Shown here piece by piece: positions 13,555 through 32,536 of a stretch of 64,000 nucleotides of DNA. This stretch comes from Paenibacillus sp. FSL H7-0357 (GTDB taxonomy: Bacteria > Bacillota > Bacilli > Paenibacillales > Paenibacillaceae), in contig NZ_CP009241.1 in NCBI RefSeq assembly GCF_000758525.1, positions 1,054,001 to 1,118,000 of the forward strand. Reading direction: 5' to 3'. Positions within the stretch are counted from its first letter, which is position 1, and each line of letters begins with the position of its first letter. The translations under genes were made by a program, and so were the position numbers. The notes beneath the pieces are model-generated. The model was not told the origin of the DNA, ran no database searches, and saw nothing but the letters and a program-made list of their open reading frames with translations.

Positions 13555-15336
13555 TTAAGGGAGTACTACACTCATGCTTTCCAAGGAGTCTGCCACGAAC
13601 ACGGGCAAGCCTGTATCTGTCTCTACGTATTCGAAACTGTTCAAGAACTGACCGCTCACCAGGGCTAACCCCGTAACCGATCCGGTATTTCCCTGAAGGA
13701 CAATAAGACGTCCATCGGAGCTTGCAACGGATCTGCCCGAAGAATCAATATATATATCGCAGTGAAGGGTAACCTTCTCAAAGGGATGAAGCTCCAGCTC
13801 GATAGCGGAAATCTGTGGATATTCCTGTTCCTGATGAATCTCGGAGAACTGGTAGACGCCCTCTGTTAATCGGTATACCGCGGTCAGGCCGTCTCCACCA
13901 TTGTCTACAATTGCATTTTCAACGTAAATAGCATGATCATCCGGCTGCAGCGTATAGCTGTTTCCGGCAAACGAGAAGAGCTGGGAGATTCCCTCCGGCT
14001 TAATCTGATAGGCAGTAAAAGAGGTGCGCCCATCCTCACGGCTGCTCTCGGCGACGACCACAGGCACTTCGGAGAGGGCTGACAGCTTATCATCAAAAGC
14101 AAGACTGCGGAGATTCTCGAAGCCCGCAATGACTTCACCGGTCCTTGTCGAGACAATCCCGTCCTCGCTCATATCCGCAAAGTAGAGGACTCCGCTGCTG
14201 TCTGTTCCGGCTACGGCCACCTTGGCTCCGTATCTTCCGGTGACGGAGACAACATGGGCATATTTGCCCTGCTCCTCACCGCCCGGTAGCAGGCGGACAG
14301 GCTCCGCAGCATTCCAGGCGATCCTGGCGGCGGCAATGTCTTCTGCAGTGTCCTGAAGTCCGGTGAGGTCGCTGTACAGCTGGATCGCTTCAGCATATTG
14401 GCCGCCGCGGACCAAACGTGCGGCGCTCTTCATCAGCTTCGCTAAGCTGCTGTCTATTAACGTAAGCACCTTGGATGAATCAATGCCGGCAGAGGCAGCA
14501 TATTTGCGGTAGCTTACGGCATGCCCGGTAAAGGCGGCATAGGAATCACTGTCCAGATCGCCGCTGAGCATCTTCTTTGCGCTGGCCTCAGTTTGCTCCT
14601 GTACCCATGAGGCATTATAGGTGTGGCTGTTGTAGGCATCCATCATGGACAAGGCGGAATTCAGCAGAGCATCGAAGCTTCCAGCCGCCGCCAGCTCCTT
14701 GAGCTTAACCGTATCATGAGCTTGGAAGGACCCGGCCAGCAGCTTCTCCTTGGCTGGGCTCCCTCCATAAAAGGCATCGGGAATCCGCAGCAGATTCCAC
14801 TTGAAGCTGTCCCCGCTGTCTTCATTGCCGCTGCCGCTTTGACTGGCCCCCAGTTCGGTAAGAAACTGGCTCTTGAACTGCTGGAACCCGGCTGAGAACT
14901 GGCCGGAAAGGCCTGAATCCGCCGACAACTGGCGATAATAGGATTCATAAGACCCTCCCGGCTGCATATACTCAGTTTTCAGGCTAAGCAAAGCAGCATA
15001 ACTCTCCATGAACCCGGTAAAATCCTTTGTATCCAGCTGCTGGGACACTTTTAATACCAGTGTCTTGAGCCCGCTGCGGATCGCTGTTATTGGAGCCAGC
15101 TCCTTGAGCTTCGCTGCAACCTCGTCTTCCTTATAGAGGATGGAAGGGTTCGCCGCTGCCAGGCGGTACTGGTTCTCTGCGGCAATCAGATCGCCGGCGG
15201 CATACAGCCGGTCGCCTTCATGCACGGCCTTAATCTTGTCTTCGATTCTAAATGCCTTCTGTCCAAGCAGAATAAGGATGAATGTACACAAAATGATCAA
15301 TATATTCCGCAGGGATATGGCTTGTTTAAACGTCAT
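13555..15336 (-). CDS. Bitopic membrane protein with helical-repeat and beta C-terminal regions
   Basis: A 593-aa protein with one N-terminal membrane segment (about residues 9-28, NILIILCTFILILLG). An alpha-helical region follows, starting with a TPR-like stretch (GDRLYAAGDLIAAENQYRLAAAN) and another near residue 320 (RGGQYAEAIQLYSDLTGL). The last 230 residues look like beta-rich, possibly propeller-like repeats. The bulk probably lies outside the membrane. It is the distal gene of the leftward arm of the tubulin/VWA/GTPase locus. No named family was recognised. Confidence 0.8.
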   Translation of the reverse strand: MTFKQAISLRNILIILCTFILILLGQKAFRIEDKIKAVHEGDRLYAAGDLIAAENQYRLAAANPSILYKEDEVAAKLKELAPITAIRSGLKTLVLKVSQQLDTKDFTGFMESYAALLSLKTEYMQPGGSYESYYRQLSADSGLSGQFSAGFQQFKSQFLTELGASQSGSGNEDSGDSFKWNLLRIPDAFYGGSPAKEKLLAGSFQAHDTVKLKELAAAGSFDALLNSALSMMDAYNSHTYNASWVQEQTEASAKKMLSGDLDSDSYAAFTGHAVSYRKYAASAGIDSSKVLTLIDSSLAKLMKSAARLVRGGQYAEAIQLYSDLTGLQDTAEDIAAARIAWNAAEPVRLLPGGEEQGKYAHVVSVTGRYGAKVAVAGTDSSGVLYFADMSEDGIVSTRTGEVIAGFENLRSLAFDDKLSALSEVPVVVAESSREDGRTSFTAYQIKPEGISQLFSFAGNSYTLQPDDHAIYVENAIVDNGGDGLTAVYRLTEGVYQFSEIHQEQEYPQISAIELELHPFEKVTLHCDIYIDSSGRSVASSDGRLIVLQGNTGSVTGLALVSGQFLNSFEYVETDTGLPVFVADSLESMSVVLP

Positions 15337-15350
15337 ATTATAGTAGCCCC

Positions 15351-15405: not shown

Positions 15406-15438
15406 TTTAAAGTACTATTAAATATTGCAGTACTTTAC

Positions 15439-16380
15439 TCAAGATTCAGGGTCCCACCGGTATTTGGCTTCACGGACTTCCGCCACCTTAAGATCCAGGC
15501 CGTTCCAGGCTTCATAGGGGCTGGCGGAGATCAGCCTGGATAAGCGCAGGAAACGGTCCTTGGGCAGATCCTGTATGTATCTTCCGATCATTCCGGAGTA
15601 GAGCAGCGCGTAACGCTTCAGGCGTACAGCCGCTCCGGCGACACCGACCAGGATGGCCGCACCTTTATCCATTTCAAGAATCTGAGCTTCATAATTCTTC
15701 ACATAGCGCAGCGTACGGTCTTTGATAAGGTCAGGGCGGACCTTGGCGATTTCGCCGATATATTCTGCGAGCAGTGGCTCGAAATCCTTCAGCAACAGCT
15801 GTTCAAGCTCCAGGTACATATCTTTACGCAGCTGGAAACCGTGCAGAAGGGCAATACGCTGGCGGGCAATCCGGTCGCCGCGCAGCAGGATGGAAATTTC
15901 GCGCAGCTTCTCGTAGGCCAGCACATCATTCTCGCGCAGTACGGATACAGCCTCCTGACGGTTGATTTCCAGGCCCTCCTTGATGTTAATGATATTTCGT
16001 CCCAGCAGTTCATTGAGGGCATAAAGATTCTGGTTCTGCCTTACCTTCCGCTGCGTATAGAATAGAAGTCCGGCTAGAACGACTCCTCCGGCAGCGCACA
16101 GCACCATCTGCTGCAAGCTCTCGCCGAAATAGACCGAGACCAGGGTGAGCAGCAGGATGAGCAGCAGGCGGGTGTGCATTTTGCGTCCTGCGATGGAGGT
16201 GGCCTGCTTCTCCACCGGAGTCAGGGCGGCACGTCCGCATTTGCCGCAGCGCTCTTCGCCTAGTGCGGTATAACGGCCGCAATGGCGGCAGACGCGCAGG
16301 TTATCATGCGCATAACGCGGAGCCTTGAAAGGCCGGAAAGTTACGGGTTTCTTCTTATTCACGGGCAGGATCGCCTCCAT
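15439..16380 (-). CDS. Zinc-ribbon membrane protein of the tubulin-type locus
   Basis: A 313-aa protein. An N-terminal zinc ribbon is visible as CRHC (31-34) and CGKC (45-48). Two adjacent membrane segments follow at about residues 68-112 (LLLILLLTLVSVYFG, VLCAAGGVVLAGLLFY). The remaining 200 residues are predicted cytoplasmic helices rich in Arg/Leu/Glu. The start overlaps the 50-aa gene upstream by 26 nt, so the two are probably translated together. The DO-GTPase-like protein at 27319 carries a similar split zinc ribbon. Confidence 0.82.
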   Translation of the reverse strand: MEAILPVNKKKPVTFRPFKAPRYAHDNLRVCRHCGRYTALGEERCGKCGRAALTPVEKQATSIAGRKMHTRLLLILLLTLVSVYFGESLQQMVLCAAGGVVLAGLLFYTQRKVRQNQNLYALNELLGRNIINIKEGLEINRQEAVSVLRENDVLAYEKLREISILLRGDRIARQRIALLHGFQLRKDMYLELEQLLLKDFEPLLAEYIGEIAKVRPDLIKDRTLRYVKNYEAQILEMDKGAAILVGVAGAAVRLKRYALLYSGMIGRYIQDLPKDRFLRLSRLISASPYEAWNGLDLKVAEVREAKYRWDPES

Positions 16381-16507
16381 TCAGTGCGGCGAGCAGCCTC
16401 TCGTCAATGTCGTCACGGGTAAGCGGCTTGCGCTGGCGTGAAGCATACAAGGAGATCTGAATTACGGCATATAGAAACGTAATCCCGAGAATGACGTATG
16501 AAATCAT
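16355..16507 (-). CDS. 50-residue single-span membrane protein
   Basis: Small gene leading the leftward arm. The ATG at 16507 is preceded by AAAGGAAGAG at good spacing. The product starts MISYVILGITFLYAVIQISL, one membrane helix, then a basic stretch (YASRQRKPLTR) and an acidic amphipathic tail (DDIDERLLAALNGGDPARE). It overlaps the zinc-ribbon gene by 26 nt. It is likely a small subunit or adaptor in the membrane complex; no family was recognised. Confidence 0.7.
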   Translation of the reverse strand: MISYVILGITFLYAVIQISLYASRQRKPLTRDDIDERLLAALNGGDPARE

Positions 16508-16711
16508 GGAACTCTTCCTTTCTTCTTGGAAGTACAGCGGTCTGGAGGGGCTGATAGAATGACGATTCTATGCACCCGGTTGCCGGTCCTGCGGTCCTAA
16601 AGTTGAAGTTTACAAGGTTTAATTATATCATAATGGCATACTATTTACAGATTTTAGCTATACCGTTACCCTGCCGCATAACCCGAATATAACACAAGAG
16701 GAGCCATCTTT

Positions 16712-18547
16712 ATGCTTCGTACACATTTACACCTAAGAAGAACAAGTCCAACGATGCTGCAGCGTGTTGTACCTTTACTGCTGCTGATTCTGTTCATGGC
16801 CGCTGCGCCCTTTGCGACATTGCAGGCCAGCGCTGCAACATCTGCCGCGCCATCTCATATTGACGCCGTACTGCTGATTGATGTCAGCAACTCCATGAAT
16901 AAGAGTGACAAGAACAAGATCGCGAACGAAGCGATGAAAATGTTTATAGATATGCTGTCTGCCCAAGGCGACAAGGTCGGTATCGTAGCCTACACCGATA
17001 AGGTGCAGCGGGAGAAGGCGCTGCTGCAAATCAGCTCTGCCAGTGATAAGCAGGACCTCAAGGATTTCATCGACGGTTTAAGCCGCGGGGCGTATACGGA
17101 TATCGCCGTAGGGATGGAAGAGGCCGTCAAGGTGCTGGAGAATGGCAGTGACCCGGGTCATGAGCCAATGATCGTCATGCTGGCTGACGGCAACAATGAT
17201 TTGGATGAATCAAGCGGCCGGACCCAGAGCCAGTCGGATCAGGAACTGGATGCTGCCATAGAAACAGCCAAGCAGAAAGGATACCCGGTTTATACTATAG
17301 GGCTCAATGCTGATGGCAAGCTGAATAAAGAAATTCTGGCAGGCCTGTCTGACAAGACAGGCGGCAAGGCATTCACAACGGATTCGGCCGATGATCTGCC
17401 GCAGATCCTAAGTGAAATTTTTGCCAGCCATTTGAAGCTGAAGGTCGTGCCTGTACAGTCGATTACGGCGAACGGAAGCTATCAGGAGGTTACGGTCAAT
17501 GTTCCTAACAGCAGTGTGCTGGAAGCGAATATATCCATTATGTCCTCCCAGCCGGTTACCGCGAAGCTGACGGATCCTTCGGGAAAATCTATAGCTATCC
17601 CGTCGGACGATGTCCTGCTGTCCAAATCGAGCAGCTATAGCCTGATCAAGCTGATCTCGCCGGAGCAGGGGGACTGGAAGCTCCAGGTGAAGGGTGTGCC
17701 GAAGGATAAGATCGATATCAATCTCGTATTCAACTATGATCTGGAGCTTAAGATCGATGCGCTGCCTTCCGCCGCAACTTACAAGAAGGGCGATAAAGTT
17801 GAGATTTCCTCGCACCTGTTCAGCAATGGTGCTCAGGTAACGCTCAGTAATTTGTATCAAGATATGAAGGCGGTACTGCTCGCCACGGATCTGGATACAG
17901 GCGATGTGCAGGAGATTCCGCTGGATAACTCCGCAGCGGTCTTCAAAGGCACCTTTGAACTCAAGGACAGCCATGAGTATGAGCTGAAGGTCCGGGCGGA
18001 GGAGAGCAGCTTCTACCGTGAGAGTGACGTGCTCAAGATCAACGCCAAGACGGGGACGGTTGCTACAAGCCCACCGGCAGCGGGAACAAAGCCGGGTGGT
18101 GAAGAACCTGCTCTGGAGAAGTCTTCCTCAAAGACGCCATATTTTATCATTGGGGGCATCGTGCTGCTGCTCGCTGCGGCTGTTGCGTTCTGGCTGTTGC
18201 GCAAGAATTCGACCCGAGGTTTTGTAGGGCAGATGGTGGTGGAGGTACTCGACGGGAATACCGGAGAGAAGACCTATCCACAGTACAAGAAGCTTTCGGC
18301 GTTCCGGGGGAAATTCACCCTTCACCAATTGCTGCAGCTGGCACCGGAGCTGAAGGAGAGCGAGAAGCTCGTCTTCACACCGGGCAAGAATGACCGCCTG
18401 CTGCTGCGCGGCGGGGAAGGTATATCCGTGGAAAGATCGGGCCGTGTGGCCGATACCTCGCGCGGACTAGAATTGAAGAGCGGCGACCGTATTTCCGTGG
18501 CGCTGCAGACGGTAGATAAGACGATTTTGCTGGAGTATTTAATATAA
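16712..18547 (+). CDS. Membrane-anchored von Willebrand factor A protein
   Basis: A 611-aa protein with an N-terminal signal or anchor (about residues 18-40). The VWA domain has MIDAS residues DVSNS (57-61), T129 in GAYTDI and D159 in MLADGNND. Two beta-sandwich-like regions follow. A membrane helix lies at about 472-494 (YFIIGGIVLLLAAAVAFWLL), and a cytoplasmic tail of about 115 residues closes the protein. The VWA part would be outside and the tail inside, suitable for linking an external ligand to the cytoplasmic GTPases. First gene of the rightward arm; ribosome site GAGGAG. Confidence 0.85.
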   Translation: MLRTHLHLRRTSPTMLQRVVPLLLLILFMAAAPFATLQASAATSAAPSHIDAVLLIDVSNSMNKSDKNKIANEAMKMFIDMLSAQGDKVGIVAYTDKVQREKALLQISSASDKQDLKDFIDGLSRGAYTDIAVGMEEAVKVLENGSDPGHEPMIVMLADGNNDLDESSGRTQSQSDQELDAAIETAKQKGYPVYTIGLNADGKLNKEILAGLSDKTGGKAFTTDSADDLPQILSEIFASHLKLKVVPVQSITANGSYQEVTVNVPNSSVLEANISIMSSQPVTAKLTDPSGKSIAIPSDDVLLSKSSSYSLIKLISPEQGDWKLQVKGVPKDKIDINLVFNYDLELKIDALPSAATYKKGDKVEISSHLFSNGAQVTLSNLYQDMKAVLLATDLDTGDVQEIPLDNSAAVFKGTFELKDSHEYELKVRAEESSFYRESDVLKINAKTGTVATSPPAAGTKPGGEEPALEKSSSKTPYFIIGGIVLLLAAAVAFWLLRKNSTRGFVGQMVVEVLDGNTGEKTYPQYKKLSAFRGKFTLHQLLQLAPELKESEKLVFTPGKNDRLLLRGGEGISVERSGRVADTSRGLELKSGDRISVALQTVDKTILLEYLI

Positions 18548-18616
18548 GGCTGAGAAGTTAGTGGTATGGGGAGTTCCTGTAACTGGAATTTTTCAAATTG
18601 ACTAGGGGGAAAACCT

Positions 18617-21600
18617 ATGAAACCGGTAGTGAGAGAGCATATTCAGCAATTGGATGTATCGCTTGGCGGAGGGATCGTCAGCGACAAAATCAGAGTAGAC
18701 ACGATCGATAATCCGATCCTGATCATCGGCCTCGGCGGCACGGGCATTGATGCCCTGCTGCGCTTGAAATACCAGATCAACCGCCGCTTCAAGCTGCCGG
18801 AAGATCCGCTCTCCAAGAAGAAACGCGACAAGCCGGACAATGTGGAATTTTTGGCATTTGAGACCAATGAGCAGGACCGCGGTAAAAAATACAAAGGCAT
18901 CGGCCTCGATCCGCAGAATGAATTTGTGCTGCTGGCCAATGCCGAGATCGGCGGACTGCTGCAGAACCGCAGCATTCTCGACCCGTATATTACAGAATGG
19001 CTGTCACCTGAGCTGAGCATTACCGACGGAATGAACGGTGCCGCAGGGGTACGCCAGGCTGGACGGCTGCTGCTGTTTACGAAGATCAACCAGGTTGTGG
19101 GCGCCATCGACAAGAAGATCAAGACGCTGTCCGTCGGCACCAGCAAGAAGCTGATGGTATTCCTGCTCACCGGTCTGTCCGGGGGAACAGGAAGCGGCTC
19201 GTTCCTTGATATTGCTTATATCGTGCGCGGGATTATAGAACGCGACTACGGCGCGGCCGGTGTTGACCGGGTGAACACACTGGGATATCTGTTCACGCCG
19301 GACGTGAACCTGGCAAACAAGAGCCTCAGCGAGCATACGCGCGAATATATCCGCAAGAACGGGTATGCGGCGCTCAAAGAGCTGGATTACTGGATGAATG
19401 TGGACAGCCGGGGTGAACGGTTCCGCCAGCAATACGGCAATATACTGACGGTTAATTCGCCGCTGCCTCCGTTCAATCTGTGCCATCTGATCTCGGCGAC
19501 CAATACCGAAGGCAAGCTGCTGGAGAACGCCTATGATTATTGCATGAATGTAACTGCGGAGAATATCACGAACTTTATGGCCAGCGAGGAAAAGCAGTCG
19601 GGTGAGGAATTTGCGATCCACGACTATATCAGCAACATCCGCACGAACATTGCGCAGATGAACAAGACCTATCCGGCCAACTATGAATACAACATTATCG
19701 GGGCCTCTTCCGCAGTTCTGCCGATAGAGGAAATGACCACCTATCTGGCTTTCCGCCTGTTCGACAAGATGGACAAGATGTTCCAGCAGGCACCGGGGCA
19801 GGAGGATGTGGAGAAGCTGGCCCGCAAGCTGGGCATCGACCTCGACACCATGATCAAAACCTTTGAATCCCGTGTGCCGGAGCCGCTGCCCGGCTACCAG
19901 AACAGTGAACGTCTGGGCCATGCCAATGTGATCAAGAACCAGGTCGTCGACATGGATACGGAGCTGGAGCAGAACTTCCTGTCCCGGGCGCGTGAAGAAT
20001 ATATCAAGGCCAAGAAGCAGCTGCCGGGCGAAATCACCGGACGTTTCGGTGAGGAACTGGAGCGAATCTTCCTTCATCCTGAGCAGGGACCGTTTTATGT
20101 CTCTCGCCTGCTTTATACCGAGAAGGGCTTCTGTATTCTGAAGCTGATCCAGTCCTATATCGAAGCGCTGCGTGAGAGCCTGCTGAGACTTCCGCGCGAT
20201 ATCGAGACGGCGCAGGAGAGTGCGGAGGAGAAGCTGGGCGATGCGCGGAGCGCTTTTGTCTCCAAGGAAAAGAAGAAAAACGCCTATATCGAAGCCAAAA
20301 TCAACGAGTACTGGCTGCATGCTGATGTGGAGCGCACGGAGCAGATGATCGAATTCTACGAGGACCTGTTTGAGCTTCTGAATGAAGAAAACAACCGGAT
20401 TTATGGTGTGTTTACGGAGATTCTCAGTGCGCTCAGCACGATCTTTGAGAAGAACGGCGATATTTTGATTAACGGTGAAGAGCAGGCCGACCATAAAGGC
20501 AACAAAACCTACTACTGGAATATCGTCAATGTGCCGGATATTTCGGCGACGATCTCGAAGGTAATGGACCAGAAGGACGGTGATGACCTGATCCGTGACT
20601 TCACGCGGGAAATGCTGAAGCATTCCGGCCGCTGGGTCAAAGAACAGGAGATCGACATTGTGCGTTCCATCTCCGAATTCCTGAGCGATAAGTTCGGCGA
20701 TCTCATTACCCGTTCGATGGAGGATTTCCTGGTCATGAAATACGGCCGCGAGGAGCCGCTGGATAAGTTCGTGGAGCGGATTATCGCCGGACGCCTGGAT
20801 GAGGACGCCGTGCCGATTTTCCATCTCAGCAACAGCTCCGGCAGCCTGCACTTCCCGTCGTGGGGATTCGTATCTGTGCCGGTTAAGGCACCGGGCATCC
20901 TGAAGGGGATCCGCAATTATCAGAATAATGCGCTGGGCAAATCGCAGTTTACGATCAAGGAAAGCCAGGTGAAGAACCGGATTTTCTGGCTGAATACGCG
21001 CAATGGGGTACCGCTGTTTGTGTATACGCCGCTGCGGGTGTTCGAGGAGAACTATGAGCGGACCATCCTCGACAAGGAAGGCATTGGCCGCCATCTGGTG
21101 ATGACTGACAAGAACAACTGGACCTACCTGCCGTCCCCGATTCCGGAAAAATCATGGGGCGATACCTACGTCAACGCCCGTGTGCGTGATTACAACGCCA
21201 GAGTTCGCGCCGATTTCGCGAAAGCACTGGAGAGCGGGGTTATTATCGAAAAAGGGCTGGATGAAAATACGAGCAGCCGGTTCTCGGTCGTGTTCACCAA
21301 GCCGTTCGACTTGGCTAAATTCCTGAGCGGCTATGATCTGCAGCTTGACTCCTCGCGTCCGAATCTTGGTGAAGTGAAGAAGGCAACCGACGAGCTGAAG
21401 GCGCTGCGCCAGAATGGGCTGGAGCGCGAAGGGATCAAGGATATCTTTGGCAGCATTAATAAGGAACTGGCCCAGGAGAATCTGATCCGTTCCCCGCAGC
21501 TGATTACCCGTGTGCGTGAAGAGCTGGCGAAGTACGAGGCGCTGACCGCGAAGGCGGCTGAGCTTGAGGCACTGCTGCATCAATATATCGACGAAGACAA

Positions 21601-22006: not shown

Positions 22007-22010
22007 GCCT

Positions 22011-24416
22011 ATGATTAAAGCACAAGCATTAAGTTATGCCCAGCAATATGCGGCACAGGAAGAGGCGCAGCGCAGCAAAGGGGATGGACGCAGCAGCATC
22101 CATTACCCGGCCTTGTTTCTGTTCCTGGGCGACAAGGTATCACCGGCCATTGGACCGGTGCTGGACAGCTGCGAACGGAAATGGGATAATGCCGGCGGCG
22201 TGATGGCACTGCATGCAGCGCCTGCAGGCGGCAAGGAACAGGGCCACAGTCAGGTGCAGGGCGGTGAAGGCGGAAGGGAGCGGGTGATGAGCATGGCCCT
22301 GCCGGAAACGGCGGGGCGCGATCCCCGCACGGTCCGCCATGACATCTACCGCGAATTTCACGAAGACAGCCGTTATTTGGCTGGGATGAACCGGACCCTC
22401 CGGCAGCTCGGCAACAGCATAGCGGATTATGGGCGGCTGTATTCTTCCTTTGACGTCATCCATTTGTCCATCATTACGCGGGTCGATGACCCGCTTAATG
22501 TGCTGCTGCCGGAAGTTGCCCTGCTGGCCCGAGCAGTGCTCGGGCAGTCGTTCAAGTCGGTGCAGACCGACCTTTACGCCCTGATCAACGAGCGGGAGCA
22601 GGGGGAGAATTTCGGGTATTCCAGTTCGGTAGGGCTGGCTTTTCTGCGTGAGCTGGACGGGATGCAGCTTACGGACTATACGTTCAAAGCGCCGCTGCTT
22701 GTAACCGAAGAAGGGCTGTCTATTCCGGTCGCCCATGGCCCCTCCGCCTTGTTCGATCTCGTCTATCTGCTCTCTGATAAGAACGAGCGGGGGATGATGT
22801 CCCCGCATGGCATGGACGATAATTATGAGATTATCGCCCATATCAGCCTGCTGAAGAACCGTGTGCGGCCTTCCACGGACCACGCAACTGGACATGGCGG
22901 CTATAACAATATGACCTTTAAGAGCGGCATCAGGGGCAGTACGGGAAGGCAGGGGTATGCATCCGCCGGCTTTTCCGCCGTTCGCAGACCCAATAAGCAG
23001 ATTGCGCTGACGGTGCTGTACCACGCTTTCCGCTATCTTGCGGAAGAACTGCGCGGAGGCAGCGCTGCATGGAGTCTGCGTGAGCGGCAGTCGCTGCTTG
23101 GGCTAAACCCGGAGGCCTTGCGTGAACGTGCGGCGGCATTGCTGCCGGATGAAGCCGGAATTGCGGAAATGACCGGGCTGATGAGCCACGGACGACCGTC
23201 CTTCAGCGAACTGAAGCAGCTGTCGCTGCGCGAAGCGGAGGACCTGCTCTTCGGTGACGGCGGGCAGGCTTATTTCCGCCGCAACTTTGCGGAGGTATCC
23301 GCCGGACGCACAGCAGCCGTAAATCCTGCCCGTGAATGGGACGCTGTTCTGGCGGCCCAGGAGACGGCGGTTCCGCCAGTGACGTTCTATCAGCTGGCGG
23401 AGTGGACCGCCGGGCAGGGCGAAGCCGGCGGCAGTGTGCTGCATGCGCTGCGCCAGCATATGAACGGCCTGCGCTCAGCGTTATCCTCCGCACAGGAGGA
23501 GCTGGAGCGGCTCTACGCGGAAAGCGTGGAGCGCCAGCCGTTCCAGCGGGTGCCGCTGCTGGATAAACGGACGGTGCGCAATTTCATTCATTATTTATTT
23601 GAACGGGTCTATGGCGGAAAGTACGAGATTCTGCGTCTTGAGAGCGAGCTTGCGCTCTGCCTCCGATATGATGCCGCACTGGAACAGCTGCACCTGGAGA
23701 GCAAGGCTAAGGTGCAGACGATGGAGGCGCTGGAGGAAGAGCTGCGCAGTCTTGCACTGAATAGCATCGGCCGCAGCAACGAGACGGTGGACCGGAACAT
23801 TATGGAGTATTACCGTACCGTCACGGAAGAGGTCATGAAGGACATGGAAGCGCGCCGTGGTGCCGGCATCTTCTTCAGCGAGCGCTTTATGGGCAGCCTC
23901 TCGGAACTGCTCAAGCAAGGCGGAGCGGCAGTCGCGGAACGGCTGATTGAGATCTGCCGGAGGGAACTGCTGGCGGCAGAGCCGTTCGCGCTGCCTTTTG
24001 AGGAAGAGCTGCTGCGGCGGGCCAATGTCGCGGCGGCTTATGAGAACCGCGAGATCGTGTCCAAGGAGGAGCTGTTCAAGCGGCTGTACCGGAGCCTGGA
24101 AGAGGAGGCGAACATCAATGTCCGCCTGTTCGAATACACGCAGGAGCACCGGCATGAGGAGAAATATTTCTTCGGCGACAGTGCATCCGAGTTCCTGCGC
24201 TACGCCTTCGGTGCAGACGAGACGACCCGCATCTACCGGCTCGGCTTCGTGCATGAGCAGCGCCGGAGCGGAGTCGAGAAGCTGAACCTGATGGGCGGTT
24301 TCCATCTGGAGGACCTGCTCTATTACCGCAACGGCAAGGTCTACTATGAGACCTACGCCACAAGCGGCTACCGGCTCCACGGCGTTGAAGCTGAGCAGCT
24401 CCCGGAGTTGCGTTAA
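22011..24416 (+). CDS. Predicted tubulin-like partner lacking GTP-binding motifs
   Basis: An 801-aa protein with no annotated domain that I recognise. Comparison with the upstream tubulin-like GTPase shows collinear blocks: YPALFLFLGDKVSPAI (32-47) against NPILIIGLGGTGIDAL, IHLSIITRVDDPLN (150-163) against VFLLTGLSGGTGSG, GLAFLRELD (208-216) against YAALKELD, and FDLVYLLSDKNERG (248-261) against FNLCHLISATNTEG. Both nucleotide motifs are replaced, so it would be a non-hydrolysing paralogue. The C-terminal half is helical. It starts 5 nt after the GTPase stop with no clear ribosome site, indicating coupled translation. Confidence 0.72.
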   Translation: MIKAQALSYAQQYAAQEEAQRSKGDGRSSIHYPALFLFLGDKVSPAIGPVLDSCERKWDNAGGVMALHAAPAGGKEQGHSQVQGGEGGRERVMSMALPETAGRDPRTVRHDIYREFHEDSRYLAGMNRTLRQLGNSIADYGRLYSSFDVIHLSIITRVDDPLNVLLPEVALLARAVLGQSFKSVQTDLYALINEREQGENFGYSSSVGLAFLRELDGMQLTDYTFKAPLLVTEEGLSIPVAHGPSALFDLVYLLSDKNERGMMSPHGMDDNYEIIAHISLLKNRVRPSTDHATGHGGYNNMTFKSGIRGSTGRQGYASAGFSAVRRPNKQIALTVLYHAFRYLAEELRGGSAAWSLRERQSLLGLNPEALRERAAALLPDEAGIAEMTGLMSHGRPSFSELKQLSLREAEDLLFGDGGQAYFRRNFAEVSAGRTAAVNPAREWDAVLAAQETAVPPVTFYQLAEWTAGQGEAGGSVLHALRQHMNGLRSALSSAQEELERLYAESVERQPFQRVPLLDKRTVRNFIHYLFERVYGGKYEILRLESELALCLRYDAALEQLHLESKAKVQTMEALEEELRSLALNSIGRSNETVDRNIMEYYRTVTEEVMKDMEARRGAGIFFSERFMGSLSELLKQGGAAVAERLIEICRRELLAAEPFALPFEEELLRRANVAAAYENREIVSKEELFKRLYRSLEEEANINVRLFEYTQEHRHEEKYFFGDSASEFLRYAFGADETTRIYRLGFVHEQRRSGVEKLNLMGGFHLEDLLYYRNGKVYYETYATSGYRLHGVEAEQLPELR

Positions 24417-24546
24417 GCCACAGGCACAGAATGGACGGCTGTGTGTGCTTCTCTTCTCAGATGAGCGAGCGTTTCTATTGTAAAAAGTGCAGCAGAACCG
24501 CTTGTGTCATCCCCTTACTGTATCAATCCAAGAAGAGACCGTTAGG

Positions 24547-24572
24547 AGTATGCTCCAGAGTATACTTTTTTT
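24547..24572 (+). terminator. Probable terminator after the tubulin-like partner gene
   Basis: AGTATGCT (24547-24554) and AGTATACT (24559-24566) form an 8-bp stem with one G-T wobble, followed by TTTTTTT. Confidence 0.55.
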
Positions 24573-24578
24573 AAAAAG

Positions 24579-24673
24579 ATAAGAATTTATATGCTTCACG
24601 CTATAAATTATCCTTCTATTTCTCGCTGAAACGGTTACCGTCCTTTTGAGGACAGCGAAGCCATTTCCACTTG
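24579..24673 (+). repeat. Interspersed two-hairpin repeat, long form, copy 3
   Basis: Nearly identical to 11775-11868 over about 95 bp, with the same AATTTATA/TATAAATT hairpin followed by the GAAACGG-type hairpin with GTCCTTTTGAGGAC inside and the CACTTG end. Confidence 0.85.
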
Positions 24674-24843
24674 CTAATACTGTAATTTCATAGCCAGGCT
24701 CATTGAGTAACATTACAATAAACAAAGGGAGTTCCTTCGCCGCCGTTTTTGCCATGGACTAGAATGCCAACAGCATGACCGGCTGGCTGCTCCGGTAATT
24801 ATAAATATCAAATTTTAGTTGTTCCCGGAAAGGATGAATAACG

Positions 24844-26121
24844 ATGCAGCGAAAAATCAATCTGCTCCTGTTCTTCTTCAGCCTGCTGGGCGGTGGAGTG
24901 GCCTTTGTTCTCGGTGAGCTGCTGCTTAGCCGCAGGCCCTATGACCTGCCGTCGATTGTGCTTGTCGGAATCTATTTTGCCATTGTGGCACTTGGGGTTG
25001 GGCTTGGCTGTCTGATTGCGGAGATGATCTCTCCAAGGCTGAACGGCTTGTCCTGGAAGCAGCGTTATCTGGGCTTGTCCTGGAAGCTGCTCCCGCTGAC
25101 GCTCGTTCTGATGCTTGGAGTAGGCGTTTTAACAGAGTTTGTGTACGAGCTGAACTTCGGCGGAATCAAGCCGATCAAAAATGTCGTAATGGTCATTGAT
25201 GACTCCGGCAGTATGATGCAGAGTGATCCTGACAACAGCCGCTATGCGGCTGCGGATGCGCTGGTGCGGCAAATGGACGAAGATAATCAGGTGGCTGTAG
25301 TAACTTTCAGCGACGAGTCTTCGGTTGTTCAGCCGTTGATTTCACTCTCCAGTTCGGCGAACCGCGAGAAAGTATCGGCTGTAATCAGCAGTTTGCAGAC
25401 GACGGAGGGCGGGACGAATATCAGCGGTGCACTCACAGAAGCTATGAACGTTATTAACAGTGACGACAAAGCCAGCCGCGGAGCAATGGTAATCCTGCTG
25501 TCCGACGGGTTCAGTCAGTTCAATACCGCTACGGAACTCAACGAGTACGTGGAGCGCGGCATCGCGGTTAATACTATTGGACTGGCGCTGGACGATACAT
25601 CAGGCTCCAATTTGCTGCTAGACATCGCTTCCGTCACCGGCGGGCAATACTATGATGTTACAGATGCGAACCGGCTGGGTGATGTGTTCCAGCAAATTTA
25701 TGACCGCTTGGGAGACCGGACCTTGCTCACTGAGCGCAGTGATGCGACCGCCGACAGTCCGTATTATGCAGTAGTTCGTATTTTGGCGCTTATGCTGATC
25801 GGCATAACTCTGGGCGTTGGCCTTGGTATTGTGTTCGATAACCGCCACCTCGCTAAAAGCTTCGGAGTAGGCGGCGCAGTGTCCGGTCTATTCGCCGGAC
25901 TGATCCTTGAATTCGGCCTCAGCGGGCATTCTTACTGGGATGCAATCATCCGTCTGATCGCCCTGCTTGTTCTGGCTGCGATTCTCTCCTTGTTCACCTT
26001 TGTTGTGCCGGTTGGGGAGGGACGATTATCCCGCAGAGGTGAAAGAAATGCTGCAGCCTCAGCACCGTCATCGGAGGGCTTCCACTCACCGCGCAGAAAC
26101 AGGGGCAGCAAGGGATTCTAA
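24844..26121 (+). CDS. Polytopic membrane protein with central VWA domain
   Basis: A 425-aa protein. Three hydrophobic helices (about 5-25, 37-60, 80-100) precede a VWA domain with MIDAS motif MVIDDSGSMMQSD starting near residue 116, TEGGTNI for the MIDAS threonine, and ILLSDGF for the distal aspartate. Three more helices follow after residue 300, and the short tail is basic. Unlike the 16712 VWA protein, this VWA sits between two membrane bundles. It is the first gene of the second rightward transcription unit of the tubulin-type locus. Confidence 0.83.
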   Translation: MQRKINLLLFFFSLLGGGVAFVLGELLLSRRPYDLPSIVLVGIYFAIVALGVGLGCLIAEMISPRLNGLSWKQRYLGLSWKLLPLTLVLMLGVGVLTEFVYELNFGGIKPIKNVVMVIDDSGSMMQSDPDNSRYAAADALVRQMDEDNQVAVVTFSDESSVVQPLISLSSSANREKVSAVISSLQTTEGGTNISGALTEAMNVINSDDKASRGAMVILLSDGFSQFNTATELNEYVERGIAVNTIGLALDDTSGSNLLLDIASVTGGQYYDVTDANRLGDVFQQIYDRLGDRTLLTERSDATADSPYYAVVRILALMLIGITLGVGLGIVFDNRHLAKSFGVGGAVSGLFAGLILEFGLSGHSYWDAIIRLIALLVLAAILSLFTFVVPVGEGRLSRRGERNAAASAPSSEGFHSPRRNRGSKGF

Positions 26122-26183
26122 AAGTATGGACAGCAGATAGGGAACATGCAAAACGATAGGGATAGTGAAAGGAGTTTACAGTC

Positions 26184-26819
26184 ATGAGGTACGCCGAGGC
26201 TCATTCCTCCACGCCGGTTATTGCGGATGTGGTCTCCCGGGTGGAGGACCGGTTCTGTACGCTGCGATGGCGCTGGCCGGATGGCGTGCAGGCGGTCTGT
26301 ATTCACAAGGCCTCTACAGAAGCGCCGGATAGCGGAGAGCTTCCGCCCTCCGGCATGAAGCTGTATACGCGCGAGGAGTACAAAGCGAATAATGGATACC
26401 GCGACAGGCTGGATGATATCGGCCAGGTGGTCTATACCATATTTGTCCGGCTCACCGAGAACGGAGAGACCCTGCTGGTGCGCCAGCCGGATGGCGAGAA
26501 CCGTGCCTTGGTCAGTGCAGGCAAGGCGCGGATTTATTATTCCATCCAGCAGAAAAAAGCACTGTTCGGCAAGCTGAAAACAGTACATATGACGATTTCC
26601 GCCGAAGTGCCGGTGCCGAAGGATGTACTGTGCTACGTCAAGAAACGGGGCGGGCATCCGGCTTCTAAAGAGGACGGCATCCTTTTTCCATTTGTGCAGG
26701 ATTTCCCCGCCGGGAGAAGCGTCCTTCCGCCGATTGAAATCGGCAAGGAGGATTTTGTACGCATCTTTTTCACGGATGGCCGTAAGTACGGATTGTATTA
26801 TGAGCTGGTGCCGGAGTAA
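26184..26819 (+). CDS. Unknown protein, predicted beta-sandwich pair
   Basis: A 211-aa soluble protein with no signal or membrane segment. Two halves look like fibronectin-type or Ig-like beta sandwiches: SRVEDRFCTLRWRWPDGVQAV with GQVVYTIFVRLTENGETLLV, then GKARIYYSIQQKKALFG with KTVHMTISAEVPVP. It has a good ribosome site (AAAGGAG) and lies between the second VWA gene and the P-loop GTPase gene. It may be a cytoplasmic adaptor of the complex (inference from position). No family was recognised. Confidence 0.72.
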   Translation: MRYAEAHSSTPVIADVVSRVEDRFCTLRWRWPDGVQAVCIHKASTEAPDSGELPPSGMKLYTREEYKANNGYRDRLDDIGQVVYTIFVRLTENGETLLVRQPDGENRALVSAGKARIYYSIQQKKALFGKLKTVHMTISAEVPVPKDVLCYVKKRGGHPASKEDGILFPFVQDFPAGRSVLPPIEIGKEDFVRIFFTDGRKYGLYYELVPE

Positions 26820-26966
26820 TCCGGTGTTGAGCTTGTAATTATGAGTCCGCAGCTTGCTTGGGTCGTAAGTATCTTGAGGTGTAAGCTTCGTACGTCTGTG
26901 GTGCGCGCGTTTGCGGGAATGTAAGTAAGTCTGAATGGCCTGCTTTTTGGAGTCTGAAGTGGCTGG

Positions 26967-27150
26967 AATTGCATTTCGTGCAACTAAAACGATCGATTTC
27001 TTCTACTAAGCAGGTTTAATTGTATTTTGTACATCTATATTTCGGGAAAGCCGATAAAGTATGCCATTTGCTCTTCTATAATTGCACAAAGTGCAGGTAA
27101 AAGTGGAGCGGTGGGCCTGAGCGTTGATATAGCTGTACAAAGTGCAGTTA
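26967..27150. repeat. Four-palindrome array A (51/62/51 spacing)
   Basis: Four 20-nt imperfect palindromes start at 26967, 27018, 27080 and 27131. Core pairs are TTGCA/TGCAA, TGTA/TACA, TTGCAC/GTGCAG and CTGTAC/GTGCAG. Units 1-2 have TTTC-type loops and units 3-4 have AAAG-type loops, so the second pair is inverted relative to the first. An array of the same 184-bp length and spacing is at 58609-58792, while the sequence between palindromes is not conserved. Confidence 0.8.
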
Positions 27151-27261
27151 TCATTAAGCTACATGCGGACGCAGAGCGAGGCAGAGAAGAGTAAAGTAAA
27201 GCGAAGCAGTTACAGTAGATTAGACTACAGCAGGTCATAGTAGATCAAATTGTTGGAACTT

Positions 27262-27311
27262 AGTTTTGTAGGCACTTACTAACAAGTTATGCAGACAGAA
27301 CTTTTAGGAGG
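27262..27311 (+). repeat. Hairpin ribosome-site element, third copy
   Basis: AGTTTTGT (27262-27269) and ACAGAACT (27295-27302) flank a variable centre and are followed by TTTAGGAGG, the ribosome site of the GTPase gene. It matches the layout of the two copies at 826-956. Confidence 0.6.
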
Positions 27312-27318
27312 ATGAGAG

Positions 27319-28581
27319 ATGTCTTTTTTCAGCCGATTTAAGAAGAAAAATCAGCCGCAGGCGCGGCCGCTTTTTTATGATATTGTCTGTCCGTACTGCT
27401 TCACCAAGTTTTCGCCGGAGGACGTTGTTTTTCGGGCCATGCACAGCCGTGAGGATGATGAGAACTATGCGCTCGGCGAAGATGATGCACTGAATAAATA
27501 CCGTGAGCGTTTCGGCCTCGATACTGTCGATGATATGGAGGCTGTGCTTAATCCGGCTGATATTCCCGAGGAATATCACCACTATACTGATCATGTGCTG
27601 ACCGGTCTCACCGACCGCTATGGTGTGCTTACGCGCAGACGGCTGTGCCCGTCCTGCCATAATGAGCTCCCTGTGACCGCAGGCAAGGTTCCGAGCAACA
27701 TTATCTCGATCATCGGCGCTTCCCAGGTCGGGAAGTCGGTGTACATGACCTCGCTGATCCATACGCTGCAGCATACGACGGCTGGGCATTTCGACGCGGC
27801 CTGCATGCCATTGAATGCTGAAATCAGCCGCAAGTTCCGCACCCTGTACGAAGAACCGCTGTTTGAGCGCGGTGATTTGCTGGCCTCAACACAGAAGGAG
27901 AAGATGCAGGAGCCGTTTATTTTTCAATTTGTGTTCAAGGATGAAGAGAAGCCGCCGCTGACACTGGTGTTCTTCGATGTTGCCGGTGAAGGCATGGTCG
28001 ATCAGGATTACCTTGGGCTGCACGGCCAGCATATCAAGAACTCCGCGGGAATCCTGTTCATGGTCGATCCGCTGCAGATCCGCTCTATCCGGGAGAAGAT
28101 CAAGATTAATTACGGCGACCGTCCCGGGGAATGGGTCTCGCAGTATGATGAGCCGCGTGATGTGGTGCTGACGATGTTCGGCGATTTCATCGCCTACCAG
28201 GAGAAGAGCAAGACCGATATCCCGACGGCCGTCGTGCTTGCCAAAAGCGACATGCTGCATTCGCTGAAGGATGAAGATGGCGACTACATCAAGTCCAACA
28301 GCAATGTATTCAACAACTATGTGCACCGCAACACGCTGAACCTGGATGAATTCCAGAACATCGACGGTGAAATCCGCCGCTTTATCGGCAAGGTAGACCG
28401 TCCGTTCAAAGATACGATGGATGTGTATTTTGCCAATACGGGGTATTTTGCCGTCTCCGCGCTGGGCAGCAATCCGGTCAACCAAAAGATAGAGGGTGTC
28501 GTCAGCCCGATCCGTGTGGACGAGCCTTTTATCTGGTTGCTGCATAAGCTGAACTATATTGAGGGGAGCGACGGGCCGTGA
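27319..28581 (+). CDS. Zinc-ribbon P-loop GTPase (DO-GTPase-like)
   Basis: A 420-aa cytoplasmic protein. A split zinc ribbon is formed by CPYC (24-27) and CPSC (110-113). The GTPase domain has Walker A GASQVGKS (133-140), switch II/Walker B VFFDVAGEG (218-225) and the base-recognition motif AKSD (308-311). This composition fits the DO-GTPase families found beside GAP1 proteins and VWA proteins in multicomponent systems. The ATG follows TTAGGAGG in a hairpin element. The gene overlaps the GAP1-like gene by 4 nt (GTGA), so equimolar expression is likely. Confidence 0.83.
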   Translation: MSFFSRFKKKNQPQARPLFYDIVCPYCFTKFSPEDVVFRAMHSREDDENYALGEDDALNKYRERFGLDTVDDMEAVLNPADIPEEYHHYTDHVLTGLTDRYGVLTRRRLCPSCHNELPVTAGKVPSNIISIIGASQVGKSVYMTSLIHTLQHTTAGHFDAACMPLNAEISRKFRTLYEEPLFERGDLLASTQKEKMQEPFIFQFVFKDEEKPPLTLVFFDVAGEGMVDQDYLGLHGQHIKNSAGILFMVDPLQIRSIREKIKINYGDRPGEWVSQYDEPRDVVLTMFGDFIAYQEKSKTDIPTAVVLAKSDMLHSLKDEDGDYIKSNSNVFNNYVHRNTLNLDEFQNIDGEIRRFIGKVDRPFKDTMDVYFANTGYFAVSALGSNPVNQKIEGVVSPIRVDEPFIWLLHKLNYIEGSDGP

Positions 28582-31500
28582 ACAGATTCTCAGGGTCCAG
28601 GATCACCCAGCAAATGTATACCCGCGAGCGGCGGGGCGTATACCGGGCAACCGAAGGATTCGATACTGTAGCGAAGTCGGAGAGCCTGGACAATAATTTT
28701 GTCAAAAAAATCATTCATCCTTTCTGCCTTTATGATGCCCCGGCTGAGCTGGCGGCGCGCGGCGAAAAAAATGAGAAGCTGTATCCGCCCGCGCTGCATT
28801 TATTCCATACGGAAACAAACGACACGGTGATCGGGCAAAGCCGCTATCAGGCGACTGATTTTACCGGGCAGCGGAGTGCTTTTTTTGCCCATAACTTTGT
28901 AGTGCCTCCGACACGCGCCGAGGAAATTATTCAGAGCTATGGGGATTGGCTGCATGCCGATTTTGCCGGGAGTTATGAAGGAGAGCTTGGAGGAACCTTG
29001 CCGGAGCTGGCCGATATTCCGGCCCTACAGCGTGAAGTACAGGCTGATCCGCTAACGGTGCTGCGCAGTCTCGGGTTCAGCGAAGCATTGTTCAAGGCGC
29101 TGCTGCAGGCGGTCATGATCTCTGTGGCAAGCAAGAAAAAAAGTTATGTTGCCCTCGATGTTCCCATCGCAGAGCTGTCGCAGCGGGCGCTGGAGCTTAC
29201 GGAGATTATTTACGGGGCTTTGCCGTATGATTTCCGCCGCAGGCTAGGGGTACTCACCTATGCAAACGAGCCAAAAAGCCGCAAATATATCGATCTTACC
29301 TTTGTAGAAAAAGGCTCGCTCCGCCCCGGAGACCGCAGTATCGAGAAGGATTTCATCTTTGATCTGGCTTCAGGCCGGACCCTGAATGCCGATTTCGGCG
29401 ACTCGCAGCAGCCTTATGCCGATCTGGTATGGAAAACGCTGAAGAACAAGGGCAGTTTAGATGACTTTGCCCGGTTTGCCGATTCGCTGCTGCTAGGCGA
29501 GAATGTGGACCGCAAGCTGCAGTTGGCGCTCTATAATGAGCTGGCGGTTTTTTATGAGATTGAGCAGGGCAATGAAAGCTTGTACACGGAGAACAAAAAT
29601 GCTGTGCTCAGCGGCCTGCTGTCCTACCTCAAGCCAGAGGGGGCGCTGGAGTCCCGGGTACGGCTGAACGATATGTTCCTGGAGCGCTTCGACCGTGAGT
29701 ATGACCTGATCCGCCAAAAGGGGATTCCACAGCCGGAGATTATGGAGCGTTTTATGGAGTATTTTGTGCTGAAGGGCCATAATTACCGGGTCAAAGTGGT
29801 CGAGTATTTCATCAACGGCATGCTGAATGCCCGGTCTGCGAGCCGGGAGGATACATTGGCTGCGGCTTACACTATCATTGAGAGCAATGACGAGCTGAGT
29901 GCAGCCTTTTTCAAAAGAGTGCTGGCCCAGCCTATTTTCCGCAAGGCACTGCTGGAACCGTATATGGAATCCCGGTTGGCTGCTGCAGCCCAATCGTCTG
30001 ACATTTTACGGTTTGTCGCCCACTGGGGCCGGTTTCTTCCGGAGGCGCTGCAGCAGTCGTTTGTCCGTGATACAATCAGCGATTATTTGCTGGAGAAGCT
30101 GCAGCGTGACAAAGATCCGGTTTCGGCGGTGGCCTCGATTCACGACTCTGTAGAGAAGGCGGAAAAAGAGCGCCGCAGAGGCAGCGGGTTCAACCCTGAG
30201 GCGCTTTCGCTGCTGAAGGAGCTGATGGCGGCAGCGGACCGCTTCCTGCTGAACCGTGTATCGCTCAGTGAGCTGACACAGGAGCAGCTGCTGGAGATTT
30301 CGTTCCTGCGCTACCGGGATACGGCGGACTGGCAGCCGCCGCTTGATTCCATCAGCAGGCAAAAATCCAATGCGCTGCGCGCTGCCTACCGCTGGTTCGG
30401 GGAGGAGAATCCGGATGAGGAACTTTTTGCCGGATTGTCACCAAAGGAGCTGGATGATGTACAGCTGCTCGGACGGCGCTGGCTGAAGGAATCGCGAAGT
30501 GTAGAGCCGTTCGAGCGCTTGCCGCTCGCTTTCTATCACAATAGTGACCGCGAGAGCGGCCCGCTGGATTATGACGCGCTGCTGGATCTCGTGAAGCGCA
30601 AAGCGGACGGCGACAAAGAAACGATATACCGTTTCTTGGCCTGGTCACAGAACAACCGGCTGTTCACGGTGTCGAAGAAGAAGCTGTACCCGGGCTACCG
30701 CCGGGCGATTCTAAAGTATTTCCTGAACAGCGACCGTGAAGCCTTCAAAAGCAGGGACTTCCGCAAAAGCTATGTCTCCGCTGCCGGGCCTGCTCTGCAA
30801 AATGTATATAACGAAGCCCGCTCCCAGCTGGCTTCGCCGCTGGCGCGGTGGGTTAGCCGCAGCCGATTTCAACTCCTGATCTCCGGCTCCATTCTGGGGA
30901 TCGTACTGATTGGCGTCATTATCGCCATCAGCCTGCTGCGGCCGGACAGCCCGGACACGGCTCTGCCGGAGGGCAGCCCAGCACCGGACGGCGGCCAGCC
31001 GCCTGCTGCCGTGTATCTTAGCGGCAGCGGAGAAGGCACGGGCAGCAGGCTGGTGTTCACCTTTGCTGACGCTGAAGAATGCACCGCCTTTACTCCGGCG
31101 GAGATCAGTGTAGCAGCCTCCGGTGGGGATCCGGAGGTTTACAAGGTCACGGCGACGTCGAGCCGATGCCTCGCTCCGTCGCCGGATGCGGGAGCCGCCG
31201 GCTTGAACGGCGGCAGTGGAACGGCAACGCCGGATGCGTCAGCCGGAGCAGAAGCCGGCGCGACAGGGAACGCGGATGCCGGAACGGAAGTCGACGCGAC
31301 GGGGACCGCGAACGCCGGAACAGAAGTCGGCGCGACAGGGAACGCGAACGCTGGAGCAGAAGCCGGCGCGACGGGTAACGCGAACGCCGGAACAGAAGTC
31401 GACGCGACGGGTAACGCGAACGCCGGAACAGAAGTCGGCGCGACAGGGAACGCGGACACCGGAACGGAAGCCGGTGCGTCCCCGGCTGTGTCATCCGCGC

Positions 31501-31724
31501 CTTCGCCGGGCGTGACCGGGGGGGCTTCGTACCAAGTCACTGTGGATCTGGAACCGGGGGCTAAGCTGGCCGAGGGCAACATGATCATCGCGGGCGATTA
31601 CAAGCTGACTCTGCAGTCGGATCCAGCACTTACGGCAGCCCCTACACCGAGTGCCCAGCCTACTGCAACTGCGACTGCAACGCCTTCGGATGATGGCGGA
31701 ACAGCAACCGATGCTGCTGAGTAA
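28578..31724 (+). CDS. GTPase-associated protein 1 (GAP1)-like membrane protein
   Basis: A 1048-aa protein starting at GTG inside the GTPase gene's stop, with GAGGGGAG upstream. The N-terminus (ITQQMYTRERRGVYRATEGF, FDTVAKS, HPFCLYDAP, ALHLFHT, TDFTGQRSAFFAHNFVV) looks like the GAP1-N2 type. A long helical middle follows, then a membrane helix at about 767-789. The tail of about 260 residues is predicted to be outside and includes six 12-residue repeats (889-960). This would tie the GTPase at 27319 to the membrane and to an external tail. Confidence 0.8.
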   Translation: MNRFSGSRITQQMYTRERRGVYRATEGFDTVAKSESLDNNFVKKIIHPFCLYDAPAELAARGEKNEKLYPPALHLFHTETNDTVIGQSRYQATDFTGQRSAFFAHNFVVPPTRAEEIIQSYGDWLHADFAGSYEGELGGTLPELADIPALQREVQADPLTVLRSLGFSEALFKALLQAVMISVASKKKSYVALDVPIAELSQRALELTEIIYGALPYDFRRRLGVLTYANEPKSRKYIDLTFVEKGSLRPGDRSIEKDFIFDLASGRTLNADFGDSQQPYADLVWKTLKNKGSLDDFARFADSLLLGENVDRKLQLALYNELAVFYEIEQGNESLYTENKNAVLSGLLSYLKPEGALESRVRLNDMFLERFDREYDLIRQKGIPQPEIMERFMEYFVLKGHNYRVKVVEYFINGMLNARSASREDTLAAAYTIIESNDELSAAFFKRVLAQPIFRKALLEPYMESRLAAAAQSSDILRFVAHWGRFLPEALQQSFVRDTISDYLLEKLQRDKDPVSAVASIHDSVEKAEKERRRGSGFNPEALSLLKELMAAADRFLLNRVSLSELTQEQLLEISFLRYRDTADWQPPLDSISRQKSNALRAAYRWFGEENPDEELFAGLSPKELDDVQLLGRRWLKESRSVEPFERLPLAFYHNSDRESGPLDYDALLDLVKRKADGDKETIYRFLAWSQNNRLFTVSKKKLYPGYRRAILKYFLNSDREAFKSRDFRKSYVSAAGPALQNVYNEARSQLASPLARWVSRSRFQLLISGSILGIVLIGVIIAISLLRPDSPDTALPEGSPAPDGGQPPAAVYLSGSGEGTGSRLVFTFADAEECTAFTPAEISVAASGGDPEVYKVTATSSRCLAPSPDAGAAGLNGGSGTATPDASAGAEAGATGNADAGTEVDATGTANAGTEVGATGNANAGAEAGATGNANAGTEVDATGNANAGTEVGATGNADTGTEAGASPAVSSAPSPGVTGGASYQVTVDLEPGAKLAEGNMIIAGDYKLTLQSDPALTAAPTPSAQPTATATATPSDDGGTATDAAE
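31242..31457 (+). repeat. In-frame 36-bp tandem repeat (six units)
   Basis: Six full 36-bp units plus a partial one encode variants of AGTEVGATGNAN near the C-terminus of the GAP1-like protein. High identity between units makes this a likely length-variable locus. Confidence 0.85.
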
Positions 31725-32498: not shown

Positions 32499-32536
32499 GA
32501 GGGATGAGGATGAGGAATAAGCCGGTTGCTGTACGT

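Follow-up and report, generated by a model that had tools for sequence, protein, structure and literature searches.

The window analysed here, 64,000 nucleotides of Paenibacillus sp. FSL H7-0357 (contig NZ_CP009241.1, positions 1,054,001 to 1,118,000) in a single-contig genome of 7.69 Mb, holds a locus made up of ten genes plus one conserved intergenic block. Its products include a tubulin-like protein with a putative loop-less partner, two VWA proteins, a zinc-ribbon GTPase and a GAP1 protein. By its anatomy, the locus is of the GAP1-N2/tubulin kind described by Kaur, Burroughs, Iyer and Aravind (2020, PMC7159879) and is not a new kind. With moderate confidence, we read this GAP1-N2/FtsZl1-type tubulin system as an inherited, near-core cell machine and not as a variable defence module. 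This conserved-machine reading was favoured because the gene set is constant and subject to purifying selection, copies on plasmids or phages were not found and no effector domain was recognised.

The genes form two divergent sets, gS, g2 and g1 leftward (minus strand) and g3, g4, g5, g7, g8, g9 and g10 rightward (plus strand, 16712 to 31724). Every part listed in a preliminary description of this DNA was found at its coordinates, as checked by Pfam, motifs and hydropathy; for g8 this holds for the gene, the beta fold being putative. Membrane topology was taken throughout from hydropathy only.

Gene order, distribution and inheritance

Forty loci were fetched, 20 from the genus and 20 from other genera of the family, and a second set comprised 80 of 292 relatives, 14 to 31 of which entered the single-gene profile alignments. 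Genes g2, g3, g4, g5, g7, g8, g9 and g10 kept the same order and orientation in 40/40 fetched loci. The same eight-gene order was observed in 76/80 loci of the second set, the other four (L140, L149, L150 and L152) ending inside the locus on short contigs. It recurred in the sister family, where g4, g5, g7, g8, g9 and g10 were present in all ten loci, g3 in nine, g2 and gS in eight and g1 in seven; one of these loci was cut short (L223) and two had split frames (L214 and L215). The recurrence of this gene set in a constant arrangement takes the association beyond chance. The proposal of one multicomponent tubulin/VWA/GTPase/GAP1 system, made in the preliminary description, was borne out by this co-occurrence in fixed order, except that the bitopic g1 fell outside the constant core (65/120 loci). 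Within the taxonomic order sampled, the homologues co-occurred and were not scattered.

Kaur et al. (PMC7159879) predict conflict functions for such loci, stress variable effectors and, in the sections that treat them, link GAP1-N2 systems to multicellular organisms. On their proposal, an invader would be sensed, the DO-GTPase/GAP1 switch would fire, and the tubulin assembly would trap the invader or kill the cell. We regard an immune system of this type as rather unlikely here. It is favoured by the shared anatomy and by the link to multicellular organisms, but no swapping was seen among the eight genes in the 40/40 and 76/80 loci. In contrast to the variable effectors that these authors describe, the present locus is near-core, with eight main genes that are constant and under purifying selection. 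A between-species test of component variability, a feature of conflict systems, came out negative, with constant gene set and order and dN/dS (ratio of nonsynonymous to synonymous substitution rates) of at most 0.26. On this result, the locus was not filed as a conflict system. Despite the constant set, two elements are variable, namely g1 by its presence and the outer half of the GAP1 protein by its sequence.

Trees and identities were computed for the window and 28 of the 40 fetched loci, with rpoB taken from 30 genomes including the window's and G065; the latter (L074), with a broken g4 frame, was excluded from the trees. Median percent identities to the window, within the genus and in other genera respectively, were 98.1 and 90.7 for rpoB, 93.2 and 82.4 for g9, and 92.6 and 78.7 for g4. 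They were 78.2 and 58.5 for g3, 75.8 and 52.3 for g8, 76.2 and 48.7 for g5, 73.9 and 42.7 for g2, 71.7 and 50.1 for g7, and 64.4 and 35.8 for g10. By tree distance, the evolutionary rate relative to rpoB was 3.1x for g4, 3.7x for g9 and 17.6x for g10. Among the 40 closest pairs by rpoB, keeping dS < 1.5 (which left 18 to 27 pairs for each locus gene and 40 pairs for rpoB), median dN/dS of the eight genes ranged from 0.03 to 0.16 (0.038 for g4 and 0.034 for g9, compared with 0.015 for rpoB). All eight genes tested are under purifying selection, which also counts against the immune proposal. That these genes are chance neighbours or decaying relics is very unlikely, close to negligible: the broken g4 frames, for example in G053 and G065, and the split frames in L214 and L215 would suit such an explanation, but the order is conserved across two families and dN/dS is low.

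The locus is near-core and mostly single-copy in Paenibacillus, a genus amenable to laboratory culture. Tubulin_2 was detected in 94/100 genomes of the genus, in 93 of them above cut-off, and GAP1-N2 in 92/100, all 92 being tubulin-positive above cut-off. G089 was tubulin-positive without GAP1 (a genome 71% complete), and G010 had a weak tubulin match with GAP1 absent. These two aside, tubulin and GAP1-N2 co-occur, and therefore the module seems to be kept or lost whole. Whole-module loss in some species would fit a dispensable system, a point in favour of the immune proposal. Beyond the genus, Tubulin_2 was found in 170/295 genomes of the family, covering 12/19 genera, and GAP1-N2 in 171/296 genomes of an order-wide sample, including eleven genera of a second family. 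A phylum-wide sample gave Tubulin_2 in 14/398 genomes, and seven of these belong to the family of the window. A passage of PMC9871819 calls the distribution "sparse", and this count agrees with it; the three distant Bacillota loci examined had different neighbours. Within the genus, the median genome size was 4.8 Mb without the locus and 6.8 Mb with it (n = 7 and 93, G010 being counted as without), and this difference may reflect clade only.

The g4 tree had 9/26 splits in common with rpoB, for a maximum of 2 in 500 shuffles. Across the locus, splits in common numbered from 5 (g9) to 12 (g10) of 26 with rpoB and from 12 to 17 with g4, the permutation null being for g4 alone. From this partial agreement, mostly vertical descent of the locus is likely, if unproven, and the distribution is compatible with it. 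A search of g4 against 72,556 plasmid records and 50,697 phage records gave no match at E 1e-3. PADLOC gave zero matches in ten locus-region proteins (gS not among them) and in ten nearby proteins, and no effector domain was recognised in a Pfam scan of the ten locus-region proteins. The lack of plasmid or phage matches for g4, of PADLOC matches in the nearby proteins and of a recognised effector domain speaks against an immune system. Core immune systems exist, and therefore these points only lower that possibility.

The tubulin pair, the GTPase and the GAP1 protein

Gene g4 (18617-22006, plus strand) encodes a Tubulin_2/FtsZl1 protein of 1129 residues, which matched PF13809 with an E value of 8.7e-76. 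It carries both nucleotide loops, GLGGTG at residue 38 and GGTGSG at residue 189, and keeps both in 120/120 loci, with 1092 residues between the first loop and the C-terminal end in 115/120. Comparison of its profile with that of 30 FtsZ sequences gave a match probability of 74 (P 2.7e-5). A tubulin at 18617 had been claimed in the preliminary description: the relationship stands, by Pfam and by the FtsZ profile comparison, whereas the predicted model, with a predicted local distance difference test (pLDDT) of 41.6, was too poor to show the fold itself. A PDB sequence search gave no credible, close relative for g4; its photosystem and globulin rows look like chance matches. We noticed that g4 was broken or split between frames in three genomes of the genus, G053, G044 and G065, which could be due to sequencing errors or decay.

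The next gene, g5 (22011-24416, plus strand, 801 residues), matched PF13809 in the window only with an E value of 0.012, below cut-off. A precomputed PF13809 match exists for its homologues P0065 and P0078, and frames adjoining g4 pass the cut-off in G060, G096, G061 and, together with its neighbours, G005. The N-terminal part of the g5 predicted model has a tubulin fold by structural comparison with VIA-align, a method that takes its candidates from Foldseek and aligns them anew; the best rows for g5 included low-confidence stretches in the alignment. Foldseek alone placed TubZ at the top with a probability of 0.98, but with an E value of 0.05, a low TM-score and unrelated folds intermixed. 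At least 338 homologues of g5 were obtained from 7999 candidates scored; 120 are listed, and 63 were aligned with the window sequence. The tubulin glycine signature was present in 0/64 aligned sequences. A motif pattern did match 2/118 g5 frames, with both matches outside the loop. From the model and the PF13809 matches of homologues, we take g5 to be a second tubulin, without the usual nucleotide-binding loops. Many g5 homologues carry the NCBI name "transcription initiation factor TFIID", which appears to be an annotation error for a tubulin-fold protein that is spreading between records.

The predicted fold of the g5 N-terminal part is like that of TubZ, PhuZ, CetZ, FtsZ and eukaryotic tubulin, and the g4 profile matches FtsZ. 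Unlike these proteins, g5 has no nucleotide loops, and g4 is 1129 residues long with no close sequence relative in the PDB. The tubulins of Kaur et al. are described as carrying a C-terminal coiled coil; here, long helices are seen in the g5 model (H518-586).

An older and broader description is that of the FtsZl1 proteins by Makarova and Koonin (2010, PMC2875224). As far as their account of these loci goes, g4 has, as they do, an FtsZ-like N domain bearing the glycine signature and an extended C-terminal part, in a context of a vWA protein with MIDAS (metal ion-dependent adhesion site) and a diverged GTPase; unlike them, the present locus encodes a GAP1 protein and a second tubulin that lacks the loops. 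Their proposal would make the locus a membrane-remodelling or vesicle-making machine with the VWA proteins as adhesion or anchor points. The FtsZl1 features, the vWA/GTPase context and the several transmembrane proteins are in keeping with it, but there is no direct evidence for vesicles or remodelling, and the same authors describe FtsZl1 filament formation as uncertain. We consider this proposal distinctly improbable, more so than the immune one.

The DO-GTPase g9 (27319-28581, plus strand) matched PF19993 with 27.7 bits and PF19975 with 27.1 bits, both barely above the cut-off of 27. In 18 aligned sequences, the N-terminal zinc ribbon cysteines C24, C27, C110 and C113 (CxxC pairs) were invariant, together with the Walker A, DxxG and KxD residues. 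The g9 gene overlaps by 4 nt with g10 (28578-31724, plus strand), whose product matched GAP1-N2 (PF20013, 7e-40) and GAP1-M (PF20014, 7.8e-21), followed by a further part. Its single transmembrane helix at residues 766-784 precedes a low-complexity, repeat-rich tail, rich in Ala, Gly and Thr and likely outside the membrane, with tandem repeats at 36-nt spacing (12 residues) at 31206-31529. Variability of this tail is another point in favour of an immune system.

As described by Kaur et al. for their GAP1-N2 tubulin loci, we found a DO-GTPase with zinc ribbon and a GAP1 protein with N2 and M domains and a polar tail. Two tubulin proteins and two vWA proteins, one with several transmembrane helices and a vWA domain that here may lie outside, are common to both as well. 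That paper, which the preliminary description does not cite, describes these loci in Firmicutes and does not name Paenibacillus in its main text.

VWA proteins, further membrane parts and surroundings

The product of g3 (16712-18547, plus strand) has a signal-like N-terminus, a VWA domain (PF00092, 5.3e-18), a beta region, one transmembrane helix and a conserved part of 109 residues that is likely cytoplasmic. The product of g7 (24844-26121, plus strand) has its VWA domain (PF00092, 1e-19) among six hydrophobic segments. The D, S and S of the DxSxS motif, plus a later T and D, were invariant in 25 aligned sequences of g3 and 18 of g7; the later T and D we take to be MIDAS residues. Invariant columns made up 39% of the g3 VWA, 35% of the 109-residue part and 0% of the linker and transmembrane helix. 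This pattern would make the post-transmembrane part a natural candidate for a transmitter. The VWA of g7 may lie outside the membrane, because it is flanked by two sets of three transmembrane helices, and the two VWA proteins probably face outward. PF23560 was found in 25/25 g3 members and PF01835 in 14/25, and YtkA was not among 25 of the 29 families listed for them.

A 47-residue open reading frame lies at 24431-24574. In one relative, an integrase-core transposase gene, presumably IS3-like, is inserted between g5 and g7 (L067:13339-14220), and therefore the gap between the two genes tolerates insertion.

The protein g8 (26184-26819, plus strand, 211 residues) has no transmembrane helix or Pfam family and was present in 40/40 fetched loci and 77/80 of the second set. 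No fn3 match was found in 27 g8 members, and PDB sequence searches with E values up to 1 gave nothing for g8 or for g1. Possibly, g8 corresponds to the component that Kaur et al. describe as FNIII-type. In the parts of that paper devoted to these loci, a YtkA fusion of the other vWA protein and an FNIII-repeat protein are named; neither domain was recognised in the families listed for g3 or in the g8 members. Conversely, gS, g2 and the accessory g1 are additional here and unnamed in those descriptions.

The core parts of the system are extended by two membrane proteins, gS and g2. The latter (15439-16380, minus strand) combines a zinc ribbon, two transmembrane helices and a further C-terminal part; its Cys 31, 34, 45 and 48 were invariant in 22 aligned sequences, and it was present in 40/40 fetched loci and 78/80 of the second set. 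gS (16355-16507, minus strand), a protein of 50 residues with a single transmembrane helix, overlaps the g2 start. A profile built from matches in these loci found it in 118/120, the two misses being short contigs, and in 116/118 it immediately precedes g2 in the same orientation, being somewhat more distant in L082. In L157 (6615-7742), gS and g2 occupy a single reading frame, which is either a natural fusion or a start-site artefact.

The g1 protein (13555-15336, minus strand, 593 residues) is bitopic, its one N-terminal transmembrane helix being followed by a long stretch that probably lies outside the membrane; TPR_2 was recognised in 5/15 homologues (best E 0.0014). Among the 55 loci without a g1 profile match, 52 had at least 1500 nt beyond g2, and one of these 52, L088, shows g1 by tblastn. 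Unrelated genes can take its place, such as a histidine kinase in L062 (1491-3068) and a catalase in L089 (1297-2751). Thus, g1 is accessory and outside the constant core. The preliminary description had seen the bitopic and zinc-ribbon proteins as stand-ins for OmpA parts, and nothing was found linking them to OmpA. Pfam scans of the ten locus-region proteins, ten flanking proteins and gS gave no OmpA family; this partner is not required in FtsZl1 loci, where Makarova and Koonin (PMC2875224) report it only "in several genomes".

The intergenic block (16602-16653), non-coding and conserved, at which the two divergent sets meet has 40/52 invariant columns in 16 aligned sequences, as compared with 1, 5 and 7 of 52 in three stretches to its left (12 to 15 rows). 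By eye, sigma-A-like promoter sequences with overlapping -10 boxes are seen on both strands, TTGAAG-17-TATCAT rightward and a -10 TATAAT leftward. The conservation seems to go beyond the apparent need of promoters alone. In the 40 loci, the block core occurred at 0 to 3 mismatches in 15 and at 6 to 9 of 29 in 9, and 16 were without it by the same test. A 32-base block pattern, allowing up to 3 mismatches, had a single site in the genome and, therefore, no co-regulated genes that would form a regulon were found.

The flanks of the locus look ordinary. One side has a HAD hydrolase, a WecG/TagA-type transferase and GNAT and APH-like proteins, and the other carries a surface protein of the SLH/DUF4430 type and a transporter of the ECF type. 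The surface protein (32526-37892, 1788 residues) has three DUF4430 stretches, toroid-type domains and SLH repeats, and is followed by a second DUF4430 protein and the ECF-type transporter. This looks like a surface nutrient-uptake cluster.

A possible mechanism and the weight of the evidence

A possible course of action can be sketched as follows. The VWA domains of g3 and g7 would be exposed on the outside, where they would bind a ligand in a metal-dependent manner, either on the cell surface or in the wall. The signal would pass via the transmembrane helices and the conserved part of g3 on the inner side to a layer in the cytoplasm, for which g2, gS and the transmembrane helix of g10 may provide the membrane attachment. 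There, the DO-GTPase g9 and the GAP1 protein might act as a switch that sets the assembly of a tubulin polymer, with g4 binding GTP and g5 serving as partner, cap or spacer. Candidate outputs are envelope remodelling, a scaffold or a signal. The idea, already in the preliminary description, that VWA proteins sense outside ligands and signal to a filament is a plausible inference. A more specific version would be an ancestral, non-defence, envelope-sensing cytoskeleton, in which an active g4 and a loop-less g5 divide the labour, a dedicated GTPase provides the switch and the readout comes from VWA receptors across the membrane. We know of no studied counterpart of such a tubulin-based transmembrane machine, and we put this version forward tentatively, as possible though on the whole doubtful.

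Several observations weigh against an inherited, near-core machine. As regards distribution, 6/100 genomes of the genus had no tubulin match and a seventh only a weak one, and 125/295 genomes of the family were without Tubulin_2. Motility was considered as a partner trait lost with the locus and was rejected: flagellin was found in 36/36 genomes, of which 21 lack the locus and 15 have it, so that no trait was linked to absence. The agreement of the trees with rpoB was only partial, and some transfer is possible. Upstream neighbours were not conserved, the WecG/TagA-type gene being present in 4/80 loci of the second set. As regards the parts, g1 comes and goes (65/120 loci by profile), and the outer half and tail of g10 are poorly conserved, as expected of a variable sensor. 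The predicted model of g4 was unusable, its input alignment having a mean column identity of 88%, and comparison of the g4 and g5 profiles gave no significant match (probability 0.5), for which the shallowness of the g4 profile may be the reason. Lastly, no experimental study of this system was noticed in searches of the open PMC literature.

What this analysis adds to a known kind of locus is two core parts, gS and g2, and a distribution that shifts the likely function. Compared with the loci as Kaur et al. describe them, gS and g2 are handles beyond the earlier descriptions. FtsZ is also encoded in the same genome. If the system is indeed core, Paenibacillus and its relatives would possess a further tubulin apparatus in addition to FtsZ, and the class now filed as "conflict systems" would need splitting.

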